A DNA stretch of 64,000 nt from Candidatus Woesearchaeota archaeon (GTDB lineage Archaea; Nanobdellota; Nanobdellia; Woesearchaeales; JACPIF01): positions 94,142 through 158,141 of the forward strand of contig JACPIF010000011.1 in assembly GCA_016188215.1 (NCBI GenBank), given 5' to 3'. The first letter of the stretch is position 1. Every line of letters begins with the position of its first letter. Made by a program: the position numbers and the translations under genes. Under the pieces are notes generated by a model that ran no database searches, was not told where the DNA came from, and worked only from the letters and a program-made list of their open reading frames with translations. This document shows positions 14,996 through 60,848 of this stretch, piece after piece.

Positions 14996-15134
14996 TTATT
15001 GAAAATTCATGGGTTTAAAACCCCTTGCTTTAGCATGAATTTTCAATCCCGCAAACTTGCCTATCAATCACGAGGCGCAATCAAAACCCCAGCTTTTAAG
15101 CTTGGGATTGCGCCGAGTGGCAAGTTTGCGTTAT
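14996..15134 (+). repeat. 139-bp nested-hairpin repeat, copy A
   Basis: Two adjoining hairpins. The first has arms ATTGAAAATTCATG and CATGAATTTTCAAT (14 bp, perfect). The second has outer arms GCAAACTTGCC and GGCAAGTTTGC (11 bp) and, inside its loop, a further hairpin with arms GGCGCAATC/GATTGCGCC and CCCAGCTT/AAGCTTGGG. The whole unit reappears inverted at 16151-16289 with the same length and a single mismatch visible by eye. Confidence 0.9.
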
Positions 15135-16150: not shown

Positions 16151-16289
16151 ATAACGCAAACTTGCCACTCGGCGCAATCCCCAGCTTAAAAGCTGGGGTT
16201 TTGATTGCGCCTCGTGATTGATAGGCAAGTTTGCGGGATTGAAAATTCATGCTAAAGCAAGGGGTTTTAAACCCATGAATTTTCAATAA
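16151..16289 (-). repeat. 139-bp nested-hairpin repeat, copy B (inverted relative to A)
   Basis: Reverse complement of 14996-15134 across its full length, with one substitution seen (CCCCAGCTT here against CCCAAGCTT). The pair encloses 1,016 bases with two genes. From here to the aspartate kinase start at 16452 no gene is seen. Confidence 0.9.
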
Positions 16290-48920: not shown

Positions 48921-49313
48921 TTACTGTTTGGAAAGCATAACTATTCCTTTTTGACCTGTGCGCAGCAGCTTTACCAGTTCCCTGCTCAATTCCATGCTTC
49001 CCTTGTCCGCATGTATCATAAGAGTTCTGCCAGAAACAAAACTGCTCTTCCGCAGCACAATCTCTGTTTCATGATTAAATGCAGGGTTTGCAGTTCCGGT
49101 GATGCGCTCGATATAGTTCCCGACTCGTAGCTCAGCCACTAACTTTCCCTGCACCTCTTTGATAAACTGTTTCACCGCAGTCGGTTCAAAATCAGCAGAT
49201 ACCCCTACAATGCAGTCCCCCTCCACACCAAGCTCACTGTCCCTAGTAAATTCTATCGTGGTAGGATGCTCTGCCGTAATTAACCTGTGGCCCTGTATCT
49301 TGAACGTATACAT
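48921..49313 (-). CDS. DUF371-family protein
   Basis: 130 residues matching the archaeal DUF371 layout: HPTTIEFTRDSELGVEGDCI near the N-terminus, a central beta region (AELRVGNYIERITGTANPAF) and the helix MELSRELVKLLRTGQKG. Beta-rich soluble protein; function not known. It follows the long coiled-coil gene by 31 bases and may be read with it. Confidence 0.75.
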   Translation of the reverse strand: MYTFKIQGHRLITAEHPTTIEFTRDSELGVEGDCIVGVSADFEPTAVKQFIKEVQGKLVAELRVGNYIERITGTANPAFNHETEIVLRKSSFVSGRTLMIHADKGSMELSRELVKLLRTGQKGIVMLSKQ

Positions 49314-49344: not shown

Positions 49345-52020
49345 TTACTTGGTCTTTCCTGGCATGTTAAGCTCCTTGACGAGGGCATACACGCCGGTTA
49401 TTGTTTCATACAGGTATTTCTTTGCATCAACGCTCAGCTTGTCAGAATGCGCAATGCTATCATATACCTTCTTCAGGACAGCATACTGTTCCAATGCGCC
49501 TGCAGCATCCTTCTTCTGCACCCTCTCTTTCACAGAATTAAGAAGCTGCTTGAACTCATTGATCTTCTGGTATATGACATCCTCTTCTGCAGCTTTCTGC
49601 ACAGGTTTTCCGAACCCTGAGAATATCCTCTGGAAAAATCCGGGCTGCATCTCCTTGAGCTCTTTCCGGAGGTGCTCAACAGCTTCCTGCTTCTCTTTAA
49701 GCAGCGTATCAAAATTCTTCAGCCTTGCTGCAGCTGCATTTATCTTGCGCTCCAGTCTTCCTGCCTCTGCCTCTGTCGCCTTTACTCCATCCTGGCGCTC
49801 ATGCTCAAGTGTCTCAATTTGTGCAGCCAGCTCATGCATCTGCGGCTTGCTTCCGCTGGATTTTGCTTTAGCCTGCAGCTCTTTCTGCAGTGCTTCGCGC
49901 TGCTGCCCCTGCTGGACTTCAAATGCCTTGAGTGCAGCCTGCTGCTCCTGCTTGAATGCTTTCTGCCGCTTCCTGACTTCACTGGTGACTTCAAGGCTCT
50001 TGAGCTGCTGGAATGTTGCCCTTTCCTTCTTGGTCAGGGTTTCCATCTTGCTCTTCATGGCTGCGGTCTCCTGCTGCAGGTAATTGTCAAGCTCCTGCTG
50101 CTGCGCCTCCTGTGCAGCTTTCTGTTTAGCCATGAAATCTTTTTTTGTATCATCAATCTCCTTTAGCGCATTAGCATGCCGCTTGCGCGCCTCTGCAGCT
50201 GCATCTTTTTGCGCAGCCTGTTGCTGCTCAACCTCATGCACCTTCTGCTGCATCTCTTCAATCTTTTTGTGCAGGCCTTGCTCTGCTGCAGCCCTCTTGC
50301 CCTGCACCTGTGCAAGCTCCTGCTCCATTTTGCCTTTCTCTTCAAGCAGCCCGTCACGCTTATGCTTGAGCAGTTGCAATTCCTGCCCCATAGTATCAAG
50401 CTTCTTGAGCTTCCGTGCCTTAGCCTGTGCAAGCTCCTGCTCCTTGCGCTGTGCTTCTTGCTCCTCCTGCAGCTGCTCGGCCTTTCTTGCCCGCTCTTCC
50501 CGCTCTGCCTGCAGCTTCCTCAGCTCAGCTGCCCGCTGTTGCTTCCGTGCAATCTCCTCTCGCTGCTTTTGCTCGGCCTCAATCTGCTTCTTCCGCTCCG
50601 CTTCCTCGCGCGCAATTTGTTTTTTCCGCTCCCCTTCTTCCCGCTGCCTCTGCAGCATAGCTACTTTCTGCCTCTGCAGCTCTAATCGTGCTGCCTCTGC
50701 AGCCTTCCGCTGTTCTTCTGTATCTCTGCTTGATTCAGCTTGCTTCTTGCCCTCTTGTTCGCGCTGCGCTTCAAGCTGCGCTTGCTTCTGTTTTTCTTTT
50801 TCCCTTCTCAGTTGCTCAGCTTCTGCCTGCTCAACTTTCTGCATCTGCTCCTTCACTTTTTGCCTTGCCCTGGCTTCCTGTGCAGCTTTTTCCCGCATAG
50901 CTTTCAGGTGCTTTTCGGCATTTTGAAGTGCCCTGCCAAGGTGGCTGAAGGGATTATAACTGAACGAAAGCCATGCACTTATAGTAAGATAAGCAAAGAC
51001 TATGACCAGTACAGCGAGCAATACAATAAAGGAAAACAGGCTCCAGCAGTACATATCCCCCTGGCATGCTGTTAAAATTCCGCTCCTTTTCTGCTGTTTT
51101 TCTGCCTGTGCCGGAACTCCTGAAACATCAAAAAGATAGGATGCTGTTCCTGTTGAGCTTCCATAGGTTGCTGCAACTGTAAAAACATAGCTTCCGGGCG
51201 AGAAATAATTAGGTATAGGGATGCTCTTGGTAAAGCTGCCCTGTGTCTTTATTGTTATGCTCTCTTTCTCGCTGATGAGTGCATTTCCTTCAAGGTCTTT
51301 TATTGCATAAGCGACTTCAACCGCGTTCTTCTGCATCTGGTCCAGGTTGAACATGCGGATGTCAAAGATTGCCTCGCCTCCCGGCCTTATGCCCCGCTCT
51401 GCAGTAAGCGCTGCTATTGTCATGTCAAAGAATACTTTCTTGCTTTCAACCTCAACAATAATCGGTATTGTCCTGATGCTTCCTGAAGAGCTCACCACCA
51501 GGCTTCCTGTATAAACTCCTGGTGCATAATGTACTTCCTTGCCTGGCGCCGCTGAAAAATTCAGAAGTATTGACTTGACCTGTCCAGGTTCAAGGCTGAA
51601 CGACGCCTCGCTGATTGTAATCAGCTGCTCAAGTCTCGGCACTGAAAGCGTGAATGCAAGCGCCTGCTCACCCACATTAGCTATCTTAACCTGCTTGGTA
51701 AAAAACTCATCTTCCTTGAAAAGGACTTTAATGACAACCTGGTCAACAGTAAACGGCTGTGTTGCCGGCAGCGCCTGCTCTGCGGGTTGTGAATAGAACA
51801 GATAGTAGAAGCCTGCAAATGCAAGTATAAGGACTGCGCTCAGCAGCATGAGCGTAAGCAGCCTGCTGCTCCTCACTTTTTTCTCAGGCTTCCGGTGATC
51901 CTTGCCTATATACACAGACCTGACTTTCCCGTCTTTGCGTACGTTCTGGTAATAATATGGTCCTATCTGCTTCCCGTCCTTTTTTATGTAGCGCTTAAAG
52001 ACCACTGCCAACACCTGCAT
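49345..52020 (-). CDS. Membrane protein with external beta domains and ~450-residue cytosolic coiled coil
   Basis: 891 residues from ATG 52020 (an in-frame ATG at 52047 adds 9 hydrophobic residues). Order: a short basic motif (KRYIKKDGKQIGPYYYQNV), membrane helix about 53-76, external beta-sandwich-like region to ~325 (LEPGQVKSILLNFSAAPGKE), second membrane helix about 330-357, then from ~370 to ~790 an uninterrupted heptad-rich Gln/Glu/Lys/Ala coiled coil, and a helical C-terminal domain of ~100. Both ends are cytosolic. No enzyme motif. It is third in a row of membrane proteins with the same two-helix layout. Confidence 0.75.
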   Translation of the reverse strand: MQVLAVVFKRYIKKDGKQIGPYYYQNVRKDGKVRSVYIGKDHRKPEKKVRSSRLLTLMLLSAVLILAFAGFYYLFYSQPAEQALPATQPFTVDQVVIKVLFKEDEFFTKQVKIANVGEQALAFTLSVPRLEQLITISEASFSLEPGQVKSILLNFSAAPGKEVHYAPGVYTGSLVVSSSGSIRTIPIIVEVESKKVFFDMTIAALTAERGIRPGGEAIFDIRMFNLDQMQKNAVEVAYAIKDLEGNALISEKESITIKTQGSFTKSIPIPNYFSPGSYVFTVAATYGSSTGTASYLFDVSGVPAQAEKQQKRSGILTACQGDMYCWSLFSFIVLLAVLVIVFAYLTISAWLSFSYNPFSHLGRALQNAEKHLKAMREKAAQEARARQKVKEQMQKVEQAEAEQLRREKEKQKQAQLEAQREQEGKKQAESSRDTEEQRKAAEAARLELQRQKVAMLQRQREEGERKKQIAREEAERKKQIEAEQKQREEIARKQQRAAELRKLQAEREERARKAEQLQEEQEAQRKEQELAQAKARKLKKLDTMGQELQLLKHKRDGLLEEKGKMEQELAQVQGKRAAAEQGLHKKIEEMQQKVHEVEQQQAAQKDAAAEARKRHANALKEIDDTKKDFMAKQKAAQEAQQQELDNYLQQETAAMKSKMETLTKKERATFQQLKSLEVTSEVRKRQKAFKQEQQAALKAFEVQQGQQREALQKELQAKAKSSGSKPQMHELAAQIETLEHERQDGVKATEAEAGRLERKINAAAARLKNFDTLLKEKQEAVEHLRKELKEMQPGFFQRIFSGFGKPVQKAAEEDVIYQKINEFKQLLNSVKERVQKKDAAGALEQYAVLKKVYDSIAHSDKLSVDAKKYLYETITGVYALVKELNMPGKTK

Positions 52021-52230
52021 TAAGAACAAGGGCAATGCTATGCACACCGCAGTGGCTCGCTGCCAGAACTGCTATCCCCTCTTTTCCCCCAGCAACATCT
52101 GCCTGATACATCAGACCCCTTTTTTTCTACAAACTGATGCGCCACATTGTGACAATAACCAGGTCTCTTTATAATACAACTATAGTGTAACTGCACCTGC
52201 TCGTAGTGTAACAAAAAGCTGCTTAACTTG

Positions 52231-52241
52231 CTTTATATACT
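52231..52241 (-). promoter_or_regulatory. TATA-like box in the 253-base gap before the coiled-coil gene
   Basis: AGTATATAAAG on the minus strand (plus CTTTATATACT) would start transcription near 52205. The same gap has TAGTGTAAC twice (about 52183 and 52203), a possible binding-site pair. No ORF in the gap. Confidence 0.4.
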
Positions 52242-52273
52242 TTTCGGTGAAAAACCAATTGTCTCAGATTGCC

Positions 52274-53002
52274 TCAATTTCTGCGCTGCACTGCATACAG
52301 CGCCCGCAGCCTTAGTGCAAAGTAGGTAATCAACGCACTGAGTACTGCAAACATGAAAAGCACAACAGCTTGTTGCCTGAAGATGGTACGCTCCTGCGCC
52401 AGCATGAGAAAGCTCTTTGGCGTAATAGTAATTTGCTGTGTTGATACAGCAAATGAGCCTTCAGCCCTGGCCTGCACCCCAAGTATATAATTTCCTTGCT
52501 GCAGGTATTTTGTTTCAAAGGCAACTGGATACGAGACTTGCTTTCTTACTGTAACAATCTCAGACCTTTCAAAGAGCATGCTGCTGTCAGTGTCTTGTAT
52601 GAAATAAGTGACAATAGTATCAATCTCCTTTCCAATAATATTAAAGATAGTGACCTGCACCCGTAAATTCTCCCTGAATGGAAGGGAAGTTTGCTCCGGA
52701 AGCATTTCAAGCCGTACATCCAATCCCGAGCTTGATGCACTTGCGGCCTGTGCCACTGTATTATTGCTGCTATTACTATTACTTTCAGTAAGGACAACAT
52801 ACCCTGTTGGCCAATCACTTGTCATAAGGCCAGGCAGCATTGGCTTGATGGCAAACAGGCCGAATCCTAGGGCAAAAAATACAAGTACTATCAGGCTGAT
52901 TTCATATGCTGCTGTTTCCTTGTGAAGATCCTGCTCTAAAGGCTTCCCTGGCTTTTTGTACTTGCCATTCTTCCCGTGCTGCAAAATAGTGCTCACCTGC
53001 AT
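52274..53002 (-). CDS. Two-helix membrane protein of surface cluster
   Basis: 242 residues from ATG 53002 (MQVSTILQHGKNG); a start at 53077 would overlap the upstream gene by 26 bases. Membrane helices at about 33-55 and 210-232 enclose an external beta domain (LDVRLEMLPEQTSLPFRENL) with an Asn/Ser-rich linker (ESNSNSSNNT). 49 bases after the lipase-domain gene, so co-transcribed with it. Confidence 0.65.
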   Translation of the reverse strand: MQVSTILQHGKNGKYKKPGKPLEQDLHKETAAYEISLIVLVFFALGFGLFAIKPMLPGLMTSDWPTGYVVLTESNSNSSNNTVAQAASASSSGLDVRLEMLPEQTSLPFRENLRVQVTIFNIIGKEIDTIVTYFIQDTDSSMLFERSEIVTVRKQVSYPVAFETKYLQQGNYILGVQARAEGSFAVSTQQITITPKSFLMLAQERTIFRQQAVVLFMFAVLSALITYFALRLRALYAVQRRN

Positions 53003-53051
53003 CTGATTGTAACATCTGCATTTAAAGGTTTTTGCCTTTTCCTTCGCCTTT

Positions 53052-56000
53052 CTACTCAAGGAGTATGATCTCCGCATCCCCTAATAAAGGATAATGGATT
53101 TTGGCCAGCTTGTTGTCTTCCAGTATCCTGGCCCATTCTTCAGCCTGTACCTTGCTTATGCCGAAGTTTGCTGATACTTGGCTCAACTTCAGCTTTTTTT
53201 TCTCAGCGAGCATCCTGTATAGAAGGTCAATGTCAGTCTGGTAACCTTGCGGTATTTCTGTTACCTTTCTTACCGGCTTTACCTGTTCCTGCTTGATTTT
53301 TTTCCTGGACCACACTTCAAAGCTAAGCCTCTTCACTGGCTTCTTCTCTTCACTGGTCACATACTTCCTGCCCATTATCCGCGAGACAATAAACAGTGCA
53401 GCCAGCAGCCCCAACAGTATAAATAGTATAAGCCTTTTGTCAAGCTGCAGCCTGAATCCTGTGCAGTCCTTGGGGCAATTCCGCTCTGTTTCTCCTATCC
53501 CGCATGCCCCATTGCCGCAGCTGCAGGCAAAGGGATCATACGCCTTCTCCCGGCTGATTTTCCTGCCTATCACAATGAACTTGTCCCCTGCATCGCATCC
53601 TGCCTTGATCTCGTAGTATGCGTTGAATCCCGGCATTGGCATGTCACCCAGCGCAGAGTTTACTTCTTTTGCTATGAGCTGCTCTATCAGCTTGCGCGCA
53701 AGGAAATCGTCAATCAGCTCAGTATGGGTCACATTCAGGCTCCAGTAATTTACGCAGTGCTCTCCCAAAGGCGCATCACCGACTAGCTGGGCGCTCTTCA
53801 CCCCCACTATGCCGTCATTCTCCTCATCGCCAAAAAAGCTGCTGCTTGACAGCTTGGCAAAGATCGCATCTATCTCATACGGCCGTGTCCCTGCAATCAC
53901 GTAGTACTGCACCCATGGCACCCGCGGAGTTGCAAGCCCCTGCAGCATCGCTCCGGTCAGCGCATGTCCAGGCTTGAAAGAATTGTAGAGGTTCCTGCTG
54001 TTCACCACGAAATTGATGAGGTTGTAGTAGAACCCGGCAACTGGCGTCCCGTTGTTTGGTGTTGCGATCAGTATCATCTTCCGGGCCCGCCTCACATACC
54101 CATGCTTGCTGCTGTCATTCGCATTGAGCATATAGCTGTCATGCAGCGCCCGCTGCGCAATCAGTCCGCCGGCAGAATGCGCAACCACATAAAAAGTATC
54201 ATACTTGTCAGAATTTGCCTGCAGGAACTCGGCAAGCTCCGCCGCATTCTCCTCAACACCCCTGTAGCTAGGATATCCGAATGTCCATACCTGCCACGGC
54301 TGCCGTGTAAGCTTGAAATCGTCAATCAGTTCCTGGTATGTTGCCGGGCTGCTCGCGATACCGTGTACCAGTATGATGGCATCCCTGCTCCGGATAACAG
54401 GATTATAAACCTGCTTGAAATCCGTCCTGAGGCAGTTGATGCACACGCTTCCGATGACTGCTACCATAAGCTCGCCCCGTGCATCCAGCAGGCTTGAAAC
54501 ATCGCTCAGGTTTCCTGTCATTATTTTCTGCCCTGCATCTATCTCTCCGCCAAAATACTTCCAGCTGTTGTTATGCCTGAAATACATGCCAAGGCTCTGC
54601 TCGTCAATATTCTCGGGCACAGTATAAGGCATCGTTATGATTGAGTCAAGGCTTCCTTCAAAGTTCTCAAGCCTTAGGACAAATGTATTCAGGATTACTG
54701 AGCTTGGGTTTGGCGGCTGCGGTATCCGCTCTTCGGGAAATATTATGGATGCAGTCAGCCCTTGGAACTTGTCCCCTGAGAATTTAACCGTATTCTTGCC
54801 TTGTTTCAACACGTCCTCAAACGAGCTGAAGTTGAGCGTAGTTATGTTGACCTCCACAAAGCGCGGCTGGTAGAATAGTTCTTTTCTTGAAACCTCTTTT
54901 GCCATCTCATTTCCGCATCGCAGCTCAGTTACCTCAACAGCATTCTGCTCACTGCAGTTTGCCTTGCTGCACTTGAGCGCCTTCACGTCAATGTATGATG
55001 TAGGCACTGTAATGGTAAATTGGAGCTCTTCCTGCCTGCAGTTGACATTGAAGGGGGGGATAATGATCTCATAGCCTTCTGGTATAATGCCGCTGCCGCT
55101 GTAATGCTCTTTCTTGCCCTCATCCTCCCTGCTAATGTTGAAAATAAACGGCTCTGCCCGGTCTGTCCGCGTGGTCACCACGCAGGGTATTGGATTTGGA
55201 TTGATAGTCTGCAGGTCTATCGTGCTTGCATTCCCTAGGCTGTACTTCATTGACTCTGTTATCCTGACCTGCGGCGCCATGCCGAACAGGACGCTTGTGG
55301 GCGCCTGGTATTCCTTTGGCTTTGCCGAAGCTTGCTGCATTTTCTGCTGCTCTGTCCGGCCGGTAGGCTGCCCGGTCTGTGAATTATAAGGGATATCTGG
55401 TGTTTCATCGGAAGCCTCTTGCAGTATAATGCTGCCATTTGGCCTGCTCGGCAATGGGCAATCAAGAGGGCAATTGGCTGCATCTTCTCCGGGCTCGCAG
55501 CCGTCCAAGCTGCAGTCTGCTGTAGGCAGTACAGTCAGATTGAACTCATTGCTTACCGCAGTATAAGTCCCGTCTGATGCCTCAATGACTGCAGTTTCTG
55601 TCCCATGCCAGTTTTCAGCAGGAGTGAAAATTGCTGTGTGCCTGGCATCAATTGCAGCAGTGATATGCTGCAATCCCTTTATCATATATGTTAATGGCTC
55701 ATTATTTGCATCATAAAAATACCGGTCCAATTCCAGTGCTCCAGAAGTGTCTTCAAGCCATGCAACCCCTGCGATGCGTGTTTTGATCACTGGCGCTATC
55801 CTGATCTGCTGCTCAGGTTTGATAAGCACTCCGCTCAGGTTTCCTGCAATGGGTCTCACTTTTTCCTGCTGGCCGGAAGCGAAGTAAGCATAATTATAGT
55901 AGCTGAAGCTTGCGAGGCTCGCAAGCATGATTACGCCGACAAGCACTGCAAGGATTGCCTTATAGCGTTCCTGCCGCTGCCTTATATCAGGCACATATTG

Positions 56001-56384
56001 CACATTAAGCGCCTGCTCCCCGAGCTTCCTAAGTTTTCCTGAGCGTTCCTTCTGTATGCTCTCAATGATCTCATGCTCAATATCCTTTATTCCCACGTGC
56101 CGCCTCCTGATCCTCGGCAGCCCTTTCAATTCATAGAACGCATCCTGCAGCTTTATGAGCAGCTCGGTCTTTGCATTATTATCCAGGCCGGAAGAATATA
56201 TCTTGAGGTAAATATCAACATAAGCAAGGAACCCTTTCCGGTACAAAGAGACTTTGTCTCGTGTTCCGAAATCCGCTGGATTTCTATATTGCTCCTCTGA
56301 TCTTCCCTTCCGGTGCAGGGCAGCGAGTGCAGCCAGCTCCCTGATCTGTTGCTCAAACCCATTATCATCCTCTTTTTTCAACAT
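53052..56384 (-). CDS. Large membrane protein with external lipase-like alpha/beta hydrolase and internal winged helix
   Basis: 1110 residues. Order: cytosolic helical region 1-140; membrane helix about 142-168; external beta domains; CSLDGCEPGEDAANCPLDC (near 300), a Cys/Asp calcium-loop-type repeat; a large beta region; an alpha/beta hydrolase with the nucleophile Ser737 in VVAHSAGG, an oxyanion ILVHGIASSP, and later GDEENDGIV and NVTHTEL as likely acid and His; a second loop repeat CGNGACGIGETERNCPKDC; membrane helix about 983-1005; and a ~100-residue cytosolic tail ending in a winged-helix-like unit (LKLSQVSANFGISKVQAEEW). A surface lipase/esterase joined to a cytosolic HTH is unusual. 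Head of the three-gene membrane cluster. Confidence 0.8.
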   Translation of the reverse strand: MLKKEDDNGFEQQIRELAALAALHRKGRSEEQYRNPADFGTRDKVSLYRKGFLAYVDIYLKIYSSGLDNNAKTELLIKLQDAFYELKGLPRIRRRHVGIKDIEHEIIESIQKERSGKLRKLGEQALNVQYVPDIRQRQERYKAILAVLVGVIMLASLASFSYYNYAYFASGQQEKVRPIAGNLSGVLIKPEQQIRIAPVIKTRIAGVAWLEDTSGALELDRYFYDANNEPLTYMIKGLQHITAAIDARHTAIFTPAENWHGTETAVIEASDGTYTAVSNEFNLTVLPTADCSLDGCEPGEDAANCPLDCPLPSRPNGSIILQEASDETPDIPYNSQTGQPTGRTEQQKMQQASAKPKEYQAPTSVLFGMAPQVRITESMKYSLGNASTIDLQTINPNPIPCVVTTRTDRAEPFIFNISREDEGKKEHYSGSGIIPEGYEIIIPPFNVNCRQEELQFTITVPTSYIDVKALKCSKANCSEQNAVEVTELRCGNEMAKEVSRKELFYQPRFVEVNITTLNFSSFEDVLKQGKNTVKFSGDKFQGLTASIIFPEERIPQPPNPSSVILNTFVLRLENFEGSLDSIITMPYTVPENIDEQSLGMYFRHNNSWKYFGGEIDAGQKIMTGNLSDVSSLLDARGELMVAVIGSVCINCLRTDFKQVYNPVIRSRDAIILVHGIASSPATYQELIDDFKLTRQPWQVWTFGYPSYRGVEENAAELAEFLQANSDKYDTFYVVAHSAGGLIAQRALHDSYMLNANDSSKHGYVRRARKMILIATPNNGTPVAGFYYNLINFVVNSRNLYNSFKPGHALTGAMLQGLATPRVPWVQYYVIAGTRPYEIDAIFAKLSSSSFFGDEENDGIVGVKSAQLVGDAPLGEHCVNYWSLNVTHTELIDDFLARKLIEQLIAKEVNSALGDMPMPGFNAYYEIKAGCDAGDKFIVIGRKISREKAYDPFACSCGNGACGIGETERNCPKDCTGFRLQLDKRLILFILLGLLAALFIVSRIMGRKYVTSEEKKPVKRLSFEVWSRKKIKQEQVKPVRKVTEIPQGYQTDIDLLYRMLAEKKKLKLSQVSANFGISKVQAEEWARILEDNKLAKIHYPLLGDAEIILLE

Positions 56385-56396
56385 ATCATCCTCTTT

Positions 56397-56492
56397 TTAT
56401 TGAAAATTCATGCTAAATTCATGGGTTTAAAACCCATTGCTTTAGCGAATTTTCAATCCCGCAAACTTGCCTCGTGGCAAGTTTGCGTTATA
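56397..56492 (+). repeat. Nested-hairpin repeat, short copy C
   Basis: Same order as copies A/B: ATTGAAAATTC..GAATTTTCAAT around GGGTTTAAAACCC, then GCAAACTTGCC-TCGT-GGCAAGTTTGC. It lacks the inner GGCGCAATC hairpin found in A/B. Two further hairpins follow (CAAAAATCTGAGATTTTTG and GGAAATCTGGGATTTCC, about 56508-56543). Confidence 0.85.
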
Positions 56493-56624
56493 TTAGTCGT
56501 CAAAAATCTGAGATTTTTGGAGCCTAGGAAATCTGGGATTTCCCACGCGTCGCAGACTTCCCTGTGCTGGAGTGGCGAAGCCCGTTGCAAATTTATAGTT
56601 TCCTTTTCATTTTTCCCTTCTAAT

Positions 56625-56864
56625 TCATCTCTTAACCATATTCTTTTTCACCCTTTCAAATATCCTCAAGTGCTTGTGCGTGAACACCTCTGCCACCAGT
56701 CCCCTTCCTTTGAGGTAGTTGAGGTGCAGCTCAGTAGTCCTCCAGTTGATTCCAGCAGCCTGTGCAATCTCGTAGATAGACATCTCTCCCCTGATGCGCG
56801 CAAGAATGCGGTTCCTCAGCTCATGGTTGGTGCGCCGCTCCACGGGCCCTATTTCAGCAATCAC
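56625..56864 (-). CDS. Winged-helix DNA-binding protein
   Basis: 79 residues: an ArsR-like winged helix (MSIYEIAQAAGINWRTTELH recognition region, GRGLVAEVFTHKHLRIFERV wing). It could regulate the downstream membrane cluster, which begins 240 bases on, past repeat C. An AT-rich TATATTAATAC region lies upstream. Confidence 0.75.
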   Translation of the reverse strand: MIAEIGPVERRTNHELRNRILARIRGEMSIYEIAQAAGINWRTTELHLNYLKGRGLVAEVFTHKHLRIFERVKKNMVKR

Positions 56865-56943: not shown

Positions 56944-59900
56944 CTATAACTTTCCTCGCTCTTTCTTGCTTACATTCTCTATGTTTCTGCACTTGGGATA
57001 TTGGTCGCATGCAAGGAAGCTGCCGTACACGCTTTTCCTTAGCACCATCTTCCCTTTCCCGCACTTGCTGCACATCTTGTCCTTGTACAGGCTCTCGTCA
57101 ACATGCTTCTCAGGGCAGTCCGGATTCAGGCAAACTTCCTGCGGCCGCTTCCCTTTCCGTATAATGGTGAGCATGGGATATGTGCAGTGCGCGCATGTAT
57201 TCTTTGACGGCAATATCATGCCTGATGCAGGCAGCTTGAATGTCGTCTTACAATCCGGATATTTTGAGCATGCGGCAAACCTGCCGAACTTCCCCCGCCT
57301 TACCATGATGGTGCCTTCCTTGCAGATAGGGCATGCCCCCAGGGTGTTTTCCGCATCCCTTGTCTCAAGATTTGCTTTCCTTAATCCTGCGCCTATCTCT
57401 TTCTCCTTGCCCTTGAAATCCTTGAGCACTTTCGTGAGCACAGCCTTGGCTTCAGTCAAAACCTCGTCCTGCTTTTTTTTCCCTTCCCGTATCTCTTCCA
57501 TCTCTATCTCAAAATGCCTTGTGAGTTCCTCATCAAGTATTTCCGGCGAATACTGCTCAAGCACCTCAACAGTATGTATGCCCAGCTCAGTCGCCTCAAT
57601 AGCCTTTCCCTTGACATAGCCGCGCTGGAATAGTGTGTCAACAATCTCGCTGCGAGTGGAGTTATGAACGACAATCCCGTTGCTTAGAATAAAATTAGGA
57701 TTATCAGTGTCATTAGTTATGTCATATACAAAACCATTGTAGTCAATTTTCTTGATTGCAGTAATAGTTTTTGTTATAAAGTCTGGGCTGATAACTTTCT
57801 CGCCTATATAAATATAAAATGTTCCTTCTAGAGAGCGAATTAACTTATAGGTCATTATTTTTCTTGGGTATTCTGATATGCCTGCTATTTTTTGCTCAAT
57901 AAAACCTTTTTTCCTTAGCAAAACCACAAGGTACTTAACATTAGAGACTGAAAGCCCTATATGTCTTGCTATTTCTTTAAGCGTTAATTCTTTATTTGGT
58001 GTAAGAGATAAGAGCGCTAAAATATCTCTTTCTTTTCTTAGCATGGGATATTTTTTCCATGAGTATTTATTAGTGAGGCTATCTATGAGCCGCTGCTTCT
58101 TCTGAACAGAATGAATTGGAATTTTCTCCAAGAATTTTTGCAAATCCTCTTTTCGTCTGATATAGAGCTTAAACTGCTTTCTATCCCGCGAAGAGTGAAT
58201 GCCTAATGTAGAAAGCATTTCCTGTAAGGCTTCTAGAAGAGCAAAATTTGTATTTGAGATAAATATTTTTGGTTCAGATTTCATGGAGTGTCCTTCATCG
58301 TCAAATAACGCTCCAATAAATTCAGTGTAAAACCCTTGTGGAACACTAGAAGCATTTTTCTTAATAATCTCTGGAAACAAAATGGAAAAAATTCTGCCTA
58401 CGATAGCAGGTACCCTGACGTAGTATGTAGGAAGATGCCCTTCTTTCTCTTTTGCCAAGCGTATGCTTAGCTTAATGCCAAAGATGTTCTCAATATCCTG
58501 AGCAAATCTATTCATCAGGCTACTATTAGTGTTATGATACCTGAAATCATAGCAATTTTCTCTTCTTATCTTAAAAGAGTCTATAGAACCATCCCCCACA
58601 AGGTTTGCGAGAATCCTTGCAAGTGAAGAAGTCATATATAGTGGAAAAGGATTTTTTATAGTTTTTGCATGATTTCCGGAACTAAGAGTTTCTGGCTTGG
58701 ATAATTGCAAATTCTTTACCACATAAAGAGGGGCTAACCCTGCTCTTTCGTAGACAGATACCCTCGACTGTAGCAGCCTGTACTTGCCTCCAAATGAAGC
58801 TTGGGAAACATTTTCTCTTCCTCGTAAGGATTTTACTTCACTTGTTACTCCATATAACCTTGTATAAAGTGAGCAGCGCTTCAGAAACTGTTCCCAAGTG
58901 CATAGTATATCACCTTTTTTCTCAGGAAAAGCTACGGAAGCTACAGATTTCATGCCTTTTTGAATTTGTTTTGCAGGAATATAGGCTGCAATTTCTGAAG
59001 CTTCATCAAATATTAATATAGGATGTTCTTCAGTAACTTCTATAAAGCTTCCATCTGCATACTCAATTCTAAAAACCCGCTCATTTTTCTCTAAAGGCCG
59101 TTTGCTTACAAGTTTAAACTGCGATGTGCTCTCATCAAATCCATTGATAGAAAAGCAAGCTTTTCCTTGATTTATTGCGATTTCCATACTTTTGCCTGCT
59201 TGTATTGGCAAACCGCCGTATAAATCATCAAAAAGTCCTGCAATATTCTCATTATGGATTTGATTATCGGCAAATATTTTAACAAAATTATTGGCAGTCA
59301 AACATTTTGTCCCAAGGTTCCTTTTCTCAAGCTCCCTGACAATGGATGCTGGCGTGTACCGCTTCGGCGGCTTTGTCTCGTCTGCATGCAGCTCAATCTT
59401 CTTGATTGCGACTTCCTCCCCCTTCTCAACTTTCACGAGCTCCTGCTCTTCAAGCTTTACATAAGGATCATAGAACGCATGCCATCCTCGCTTCACCGTC
59501 CTGGTCCCCTGCGCAATAAACAATTCGCCGCGCACGTCTATGGTTGCTGTCTGCGTCTCCCGCTCGGCAGGCTCGGCAAACGTAGCCAGTGTCCGCTTTA
59601 CGATAAGGTCATAGATTTTCTTCTCCCGTGCTCCCAGCTGCTTCGGCTTTTCACCCGTGGGATATAGCGCTGGATGCGCCGGATCTGTCTTCTTCCCGTT
59701 ATGCGGCCGCAGCTCTTTTTGCGCAAGCAGTTTCTGGCACAGCTCCTTGTACTCAGTCTGCTTGGCAAGTGCAGTTAGGACCTTCCTGTATCCTATGGAA
59801 GGCGGCAGTATCTGGCTGCTTGTCCTCGGATATGAAATCGCTCCTGCAAGGTATAGGTTCTGGGCAAGCGACAACGTCTCCTTCGGATTTATTCCAAAGC

Positions 59901-60780
59901 ATCTGTACGCTTCTGTTTGCAGGGTAGTCAGGTCAAAGGGGAACGGCGCGCTTTGCGTGAACAATCTCTTTGCAACATCTGCTATGGCACCTTTTTTCTC
60001 GTGCTGAACCTTCTTCATGACAGCTTCAGCCTTATGCGAATCCCAGAACTTGCCCTCTTTATGCCATGCCTCCAGCTTCCCGTGCTTAACCTCTCCCTGC
60101 AGTGAGATCTGCCAGAACGGCACTGGCTTGAATGCCTGTATCTCCCGCTCCCGGTCAACAATGATCTTCAGCCCTGGCCCCTGCACTCTTCCGGTGGACA
60201 TGAGCTTGAACATCCCGTCTTTCTTGATGGCCGCAGTCAATGCCCTGCTGGTGTTGATTCCCCAGAACCAGTCCAGTTGATGTCTTGTTTCGCCTGCAGT
60301 CGCCAGCCCCCAGTCAAGATGCTTGCTCTTTTCCCTGTACGCTTCAACAAGCTCCGGCTTGGTTAGGGTTGAGTATTTCATGCGGTTTGCATCTTTCTGG
60401 TTGCAGATAAACCTGATGCAGTTCAGCCCAATGACCTCTCCTTCGATATCATAGTCAGTTGCTACCGTAAACTCTTTTGCCTCTTTGCTCAATTTCTTTA
60501 TTGTCTCCACATACTTCTTGGTGAATCCCGCTGACTTAGATGTCTCATAGTTCGGCTTCCACACTATATCAAACACAGGATACGTCCATCTTTTCTTGTC
60601 TTTCTCCCCTAAGCCAAAGAGATGGCCTACAGCGCACGCAACGATGATATCTTTGCCATCATGGCTTATCTTGTAGTATGCCACCCCCTTGCTTGATTCC
60701 TTCACCATCTTGCCGTCGGCAAGGCTCTGCGCAATCCTTAATGCGGATTTAGGCTTTTCCGTTATGATTAACTCAGTCAT
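56944..60780 (-). CDS. topA: DNA topoisomerase I (type IA) containing an intein
   Basis: Precursor of 1278 residues from ATG 60780; removing the 548-residue intein gives a 730-residue enzyme. TOPRIM acidic residues (TEKP start, Asp109, Asp111, Glu113), active-site Tyr317 in GAISYPRTSS, and three C-terminal four-Cys zinc fingers (CPIC..CSKYPDC, CAHC..CLNPDC, CSKC..CDQYPKC). Relaxes negatively supercoiled DNA. The intein interrupts the RNLGTK|STRSEIV block, a highly conserved place close to the active site. An in-frame ATG at 60846 would add a hydrophobic stretch absent from the family. Confidence 0.95.
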   Translation of the reverse strand: MTELIITEKPKSALRIAQSLADGKMVKESSKGVAYYKISHDGKDIIVACAVGHLFGLGEKDKKRWTYPVFDIVWKPNYETSKSAGFTKKYVETIKKLSKEAKEFTVATDYDIEGEVIGLNCIRFICNQKDANRMKYSTLTKPELVEAYREKSKHLDWGLATAGETRHQLDWFWGINTSRALTAAIKKDGMFKLMSTGRVQGPGLKIIVDREREIQAFKPVPFWQISLQGEVKHGKLEAWHKEGKFWDSHKAEAVMKKVQHEKKGAIADVAKRLFTQSAPFPFDLTTLQTEAYRCFGINPKETLSLAQNLYLAGAISYPRTSSQILPPSIGYRKVLTALAKQTEYKELCQKLLAQKELRPHNGKKTDPAHPALYPTGEKPKQLGAREKKIYDLIVKRTLATFAEPAERETQTATIDVRGELFIAQGTRTVKRGWHAFYDPYVKLEEQELVKVEKGEEVAIKKIELHADETKPPKRYTPASIVRELEKRNLGTKCLTANNFVKIFADNQIHNENIAGLFDDLYGGLPIQAGKSMEIAINQGKACFSINGFDESTSQFKLVSKRPLEKNERVFRIEYADGSFIEVTEEHPILIFDEASEIAAYIPAKQIQKGMKSVASVAFPEKKGDILCTWEQFLKRCSLYTRLYGVTSEVKSLRGRENVSQASFGGKYRLLQSRVSVYERAGLAPLYVVKNLQLSKPETLSSGNHAKTIKNPFPLYMTSSLARILANLVGDGSIDSFKIRRENCYDFRYHNTNSSLMNRFAQDIENIFGIKLSIRLAKEKEGHLPTYYVRVPAIVGRIFSILFPEIIKKNASSVPQGFYTEFIGALFDDEGHSMKSEPKIFISNTNFALLEALQEMLSTLGIHSSRDRKQFKLYIRRKEDLQKFLEKIPIHSVQKKQRLIDSLTNKYSWKKYPMLRKERDILALLSLTPNKELTLKEIARHIGLSVSNVKYLVVLLRKKGFIEQKIAGISEYPRKIMTYKLIRSLEGTFYIYIGEKVISPDFITKTITAIKKIDYNGFVYDITNDTDNPNFILSNGIVVHNSTRSEIVDTLFQRGYVKGKAIEATELGIHTVEVLEQYSPEILDEELTRHFEIEMEEIREGKKKQDEVLTEAKAVLTKVLKDFKGKEKEIGAGLRKANLETRDAENTLGACPICKEGTIMVRRGKFGRFAACSKYPDCKTTFKLPASGMILPSKNTCAHCTYPMLTIIRKGKRPQEVCLNPDCPEKHVDESLYKDKMCSKCGKGKMVLRKSVYGSFLACDQYPKCRNIENVSKKERGKL
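57661..59304 (-). mobile_element. Intein with LAGLIDADG homing endonuclease in topA
   Basis: 548 residues, Cys1 (codon 59302-59304) to Asn548, followed by Ser of the C-extein. Splicing blocks: Cys-Leu at the N end, block B FIEVTEEHPIL (87-97), block F NGFVYDITNDTDNPNFILSN and terminal HN. Homing-endonuclease motifs LARILANLVGDGS (228-240) and TEFIGALFDDEGHS (327-340). A winged-helix-like unit (NKELTLKEIARHIGLSVSNV, about 436-455) lies between endonuclease and block F. AT-richer than the extein. Confidence 0.93.
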
Positions 60781-60848
60781 GCCATTTAAAAATGGCAGAT
60801 GATTTAAAAATGTTGTTAAAAGACTAAAAAAAATGGAGAGCTTCACAA

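Follow-up and report, generated by a model that had tools for sequence, protein, structure and literature searches.

A predicted surface hydrolase of lipase type encoded before a conserved envelope gene pair in a Woesearchaeota-type genome

In our judgement there is about an even chance that protein A, described here, is a surface ester hydrolase seated in an envelope scaffold made by its neighbours B and C, with a cytosolic tail that is one of several interchangeable ones. Its gene lies in a run of four minus-strand genes, transcribed in the order H, A, B and C according to the ORF list, within the window, i.e. the whole stretch of 64,000 nucleotides that was analysed. The source genome is archaeal (1.11 Mb, 91% complete) and the host organism is a relative of Woesearchaeota; the 60 nearest relatives compared are all from the same order and none is from the same family. 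The A-B-C arrangement is real and unusual, and it is neither a described nor a conserved three-gene machine. A literature search on Woesearchaeota lipases or on the A-B-C layout, for which subscription journals were mostly beyond reach, returned no relevant paper. The positions given for the four genes in an earlier note on this DNA agreed with the ORF coordinates, which are as follows, together with the neighbouring landmark gene.

56625–56864, minus strand: H, 79 aa, GTG start, a winged-helix-like ORF
53052–56384, minus strand: A, 1110 aa, predicted surface hydrolase, two membrane helices, putative cytosolic wHTH tail (from the ORF, Pfam and homologues)
52274–53077, minus strand: B, 267 aa, two membrane helices and one external Ig-like domain (from homologues)
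49345–52047, minus strand: C, 900 aa, two membrane helices, an external Ig-like region and a cytosolic coiled coil
48921–49313, minus strand: DUF371 gene (PF04027, 1.7e-33), the landmark of the conserved B-C locus

The anatomy of A, B and C as described in the earlier note was confirmed. By hydropathy, each protein has two membrane helices (residues 59–77 and 232–250 in B, 63–81 and 338–356 in C; those of A are listed below), and C shows an extra weak peak at residues 1–19 that hinges on the chosen start codon. Positive charge was found on the inner side of the first helix in A, B and C and of the second helix in A and B, and because of this distribution the N-termini of all three proteins were placed inside. 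In A, 18 of 18 cysteines lie between the two helices and none in the cytosolic parts, which gives strong independent support for its topology. Hydropathy, charges and the cysteines of A agree on a layout of cytosol, membrane, outside, membrane and cytosol common to three consecutive proteins. The parts of A are arranged as follows.

55959–56384, minus strand: N-terminal cytosolic region, residues 1–142, an orphan by sequence
55902–55958, minus strand: first membrane helix, residues 143–161 (hydropathy, positive-inside rule and Cys distribution)
55557–55757, minus strand: Ig-like Big_9/cadherin-like domain, residues 210–276 (Big_9 at 3.5e-4, below the Pfam cut-off)
54465–55085, minus strand: beta-rich pre-domain, residues 434–640 (conserved Cys; beta strands in the model)
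53580–54395, minus strand: predicted alpha/beta hydrolase, residues 664–935, with the triad Ser737, Asp857 and His887
53463–53525, minus strand: CGNGxCG-type Cys motif, residues 954–974
53394–53450, minus strand: second membrane helix, residues 979–997 (hydropathy)
53067–53261, minus strand: putative wHTH tail, residues 1042–1106, kin of proteins of type IV pilus operons

Residues 670–792 of A matched Abhydrolase_6 above the Pfam cut-off, with Ser737 as the nucleophile in the sequence AHSAGG. Ser737, Asp857 and His887, the HG pair at 674–675 and several cysteines were invariant in 16/16 aligned members, so that a hydrolase domain with Ser737 on the outside, as proposed in the earlier note, comes with a complete triad in every aligned homologue; the lack of a full triad in relatives, which the earlier note had named as a ground for refutation, was thus not seen. 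The beta-rich pre-domain was kept together with the hydrolase in the 16 aligned members, and the CGNGxCG-type motif in 15–16 of them. By profile, the nearest solved structure was the lipase BlEst2 (7e-9). An AlphaFold2 model of the hydrolase domain (mean pLDDT 74), submitted to Foldseek, again gave BlEst2 as the top match (3.7e-9, TMt 0.69), followed by lipases of Proteus, Burkholderia and Pseudomonas; model and search both returned the alpha/beta hydrolase fold, and a lipase-type fold of the domain is supported by this model. Like the bacterial lipases and esterases of the BlEst2 and family I type (6wpx/6wpy, 1ex9, 4hs9), A has the Ser-Asp-His triad and the HSxGG-type nucleophile elbow; unlike them, its module belongs to a large archaeal surface protein, anchored in the membrane, that carries the conserved beta pre-domain and the CGNGxCG motif, and its identity to the top lipase structures is 14–17%. 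A would be a surface ester hydrolase.

Contigs were scanned for hydrolase relatives with a profile from an alignment of six closer rows. The hydrolase module (A residues ~430–1000) was found in ~50 of the 353 genomes from the order, with identities mostly between 30 and 44%, and at full length it occurred in the same order only; searches outside the order gave just short or partial matches to hydrolase stretches or to the Cys motif, and no full-length module. Where the relatives bear names, these are Candidatus Woesearchaeota, with some labelled Nanoarchaeota. The ORFs that carry the module range from ~700 to 5000 aa and have a C-terminal membrane helix and varied tails. Outside the module, the Ig-like domain of A has many homologous stretches in large proteins of relatives, and the N-terminal region (residues 1–142) had a significant match in 0/60 relatives. 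Its assignment to a known domain was rejected as no homologue was found, and the idea, arising by eye, that it shares one domain with the C-terminus of C was dropped after a profile detected nothing.

The cytosolic tail of A has relatives of another kind, namely 17 small proteins in other genomes, to the nearest of which it is up to 44–48% identical. In nearly all cases the directly adjoining gene encodes a type II/IV secretion ATPase, and the platform protein often comes after it (L025, L026, L028, L093–L100 and L103–L106; one ATPase was checked, PF00437 at 5.9e-36, and the others were assigned by reading), while L029 adjoins pilin-like genes and L107 has no pilus gene in the piece examined. 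The profile of the tail family matched the winged-helix structures of eS25, IclR, ArsR and LrpA, and by this criterion the tail of A is a winged-helix relative; the copy in A had no Pfam family match, and a single-sequence model of it (pLDDT 59) was too weak for a fold search or to confirm the wHTH. A basic linker with 14 K/R in 45 residues precedes the tail. The recognition helix has a mean net charge of −2.5 in the family and is acidic or neutral in 18/18 members; a helix of this kind differs from the usual DNA reader and speaks against canonical binding. Given this helix and the pilus-locus kin, DNA binding by the tail of A is unlikely, and the tail is more likely a protein-docking piece common to pilus machinery than a DNA switch. 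The HTH-like tail seen in the earlier note thus stands as a winged helix by profile, but a direct link to gene expression finds no support, considering the pilus-locus family and the acidic recognition helix. The wHTH proteins of archaeal type IV pilus loci, which lie beside TadA/PilB-type ATPases, carry the same domain, which often follows membrane helices and a basic linker, whereas A has a large ectodomain and a genome that shows neither a pilus ATPase nor a platform gene. The main text of a 2016 review (PMC4858521) does not contain the terms wHTH, HTH or winged.

In the genome of A itself, 91% complete, the best PF00437 match reached 24.2 bits, below the cut-off, and was rejected as a pilus ATPase, being read as a PIN/KH-type ATPase; no match to PF00482, the platform protein, was obtained, so that the two genes expected of a type IV pilus were both missing from the assembly. 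Neither a second copy of the tail in this genome nor a wHTH tail on any other hydrolase found was detected. The fusion seen in A was therefore encountered a single time, and the genome that has it did not yield the usual partners of the wHTH domain.

Elsewhere the hydrolases end in the cytosol in different ways: some with a helical hairpin or a coiled coil, others with a longer helical region or hardly any tail. Several of them share the helical hairpin found at the end of the C orthologues. These comparisons show that the tails of the hydrolase family are interchangeable cytosolic modules. In addition, 7/36 loci have, immediately next to the hydrolase gene, a small gene encoding sigma-70-region-4-like HTH repeats (for instance L035:8479–8901, L040:6026–6475, L034:6284–6796 and L042:2992–3462), where 36 is the number of hydrolase loci with downstream sequence and where six neighbours were found by script and the seventh, in G050, was seen behind a frame-broken hydrolase; the background was four such genes in ~900 kb of other loci. 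They give a real hint of a regulatory link, which may be just regulation of the hydrolase gene itself. The G050 hydrolase gene (L040:6472–11464) runs in two different frames, owing either to decay or to an error of assembly.

With these observations we weighed the reading that A is a membrane one-component regulator, similar in principle to ToxR/CadC, which would sense a lipid outside and control genes through its wHTH tail. Such regulators likewise have an external domain, a membrane helix and a cytosolic winged helix, and the basic linker, the IclR, ArsR and LrpA regulators among the profile relatives and the DNA-binding-type HTH genes abutting hydrolases speak for it; however, in A the external part is enzyme-like and the wHTH lies at the C-terminus and has an acidic recognition helix, the tail family consists of membrane or coiled-coil proteins in pilus loci, the recognition helix is positive in none of its 18 members as opposed to +2 in H, and no other hydrolase found carries the domain. 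We regard this regulator as unlikely. Docking of A to a type IV pilus motor through its tail, with the lipase as part of a pilus-like export or contact machine, would fit the close identity of the tail to proteins encoded beside the pilus ATPase, but is very improbable in a genome where neither the ATPase nor the platform gene was found, even though a single operon missing from the assembly could hide them. A bolder proposal combines these elements: a surface lipase would have captured a pilus-system wHTH as a transmembrane switch that passes outside contact to a docking partner or to DNA, with B-C as scaffold, and elsewhere the separate neighbouring HTH protein would make the link. This we put forward as a speculation with a small chance of being right.

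B and C form a real conserved gene pair. Their external domains had no confident Pfam match and were assigned to families from homologues. The features of C are as follows.

51043–51780, minus strand: external Ig-like (CARDB-like) region, residues 90–335 (orthologue alignment)
49633–50961, minus strand: cytosolic coiled-coil-like region, residues 363–805 (composition)
49360–49572, minus strand: candidate C-terminal helical hairpin, residues 826–896 (by-eye likeness to the ends of orthologues of C and of tails in other hydrolases)

Many genomes have C orthologues that keep both membrane helices, and the external region of C is 33–42% identical to them over nearly its full length. The coiled coil of over 400 residues claimed for C is a fair description by composition, with three proline breaks: the 443 residues of 363–805 are 69% K/R/E/Q/A and include 3 prolines, and the longest proline-free run is 368 residues. 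The hairpin profile did not detect the copy in C of this genome. B is a short member here: its relatives begin with a signal-like stretch, include a Cys-rich part and have a longer external portion. Gene order bore out the pairing of B with C, the gene immediately upstream of C and on its strand being B in at least 17 of 23 loci, and DUF371 followed within a few genes in 13 of the 23. The order B, C, DUF371, S15 of this genome recurred in G053, and in L185–L202 and L083 B-C stands beside DUF371, often accompanied by genes for an asparagine-synthase-like protein and a GTPase.

The same did not apply to A. Among 353 genomes the A family occurred in 50 and the C family in 26, with 2 genomes shared against 3.7 expected (counts that ignore relatedness), which shows that the two families occur independently and that A is an addition to B-C. 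A homologue of A adjoins a C relative in just one other genome, G050, where it is divergent. The A-B-C trio is thus peculiar to this genome among those searched, and as a conserved system, the unit foreseen in the earlier note, it was rejected. A hydrolase is found in the DUF371 neighbourhood in G032 and G050, the latter having another one next to its C relative, and this neighbourhood is a preferred home for surface genes. From such a distribution, and from the fact that A and B-C each have their own conserved setting elsewhere, it could be argued that the lipase gene simply landed before an unrelated conserved operon and shares no function with it. The overlap of A with B by 26 bp on the same strand and the hydrolases in the same DUF371 neighbourhood in the two genomes speak against a chance placement, which we consider rather unlikely but well worth keeping in view. 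As A and C do not co-occur beyond chance, a functional A-B-C complex would have its basis in the local adjacency with its overlap and in the case of G050.

On the preferred reading of a hydrolase in a B-C scaffold, A would be a lipase-like ester hydrolase kept on the outside of a Woesearchaeota-type cell by its two membrane helices and an Ig-like spacer, its gene having joined the B-C operon of this genome at the 5′ end. B and C would represent an older, widely conserved envelope pair, in which C crosses the membrane and extends into the cell with a long coiled coil that terminates in a helical hairpin, possibly as a scaffold or anchor. The tail of A, as a docking module, may tie the enzyme to something inside, and the targets of A outside may be ester-linked lipids or acyl groups that it meets when the cell touches other cells or feeds on them. 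The core lipids of archaea are ether-linked, so a serine hydrolase could not cut those of an archaeal partner and the substrate must be something else: it would consist of bacterial or eukaryotic ester lipids, or else of acyl groups attached to sugars or proteins. The genome encodes a polyprenyl synthase, and whole dependence on others for isoprenoid lipids was therefore rejected; in this the host appears to differ from the nanohaloarchaeon of PMC11035636, which depends on others for isoprenoids. Of the contact or lipid-sensing machine linking the outside to gene expression that the earlier note had imagined, the triad, the lipase-type fold, the layout and the B-C pair are retained, but not the trio or the direct link to expression.

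Woesearchaeota are widespread and largely uncultured, and little is known of how they touch and feed on other cells. The locus offers three handles on this problem, all open to tests with expressed domains: an order-specific surface hydrolase family whose triad is intact, an envelope gene pair that is conserved and keeps a fixed position next to DUF371, and a pilus-locus winged-helix family, lacking a Pfam match in the A copy, that a surface enzyme has borrowed.

Regarding the head of the cluster, the winged-helix gene placed there by the earlier note, H, does show weak winged-helix matches below the cut-off (HTH_45, 1.3e-4), but it is an orphan with a homologue in none of the loci examined and a dispersed multi-copy repeat separates it from A.

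56397–56491, no strand: internally shortened copy of a double-hairpin repeat between H and A (repeat matches; fold z = −6.3 for the interval)

The full repeat is 139 bp long, bounded by TTAT and 98–100% identical in most full copies, some copies being shortened; further copies lie at 14996–15134 and 16151–16289 and at other places in the genome. It resembles a small non-autonomous mobile element and may be of the IS200/IS605 kind. Beyond H, the topoisomerase gene at 56944–60846 contains an insert of ~540 residues absent from the relatives L090 and L092, which ends in ...HN before S and is, by reading, a probable intein.
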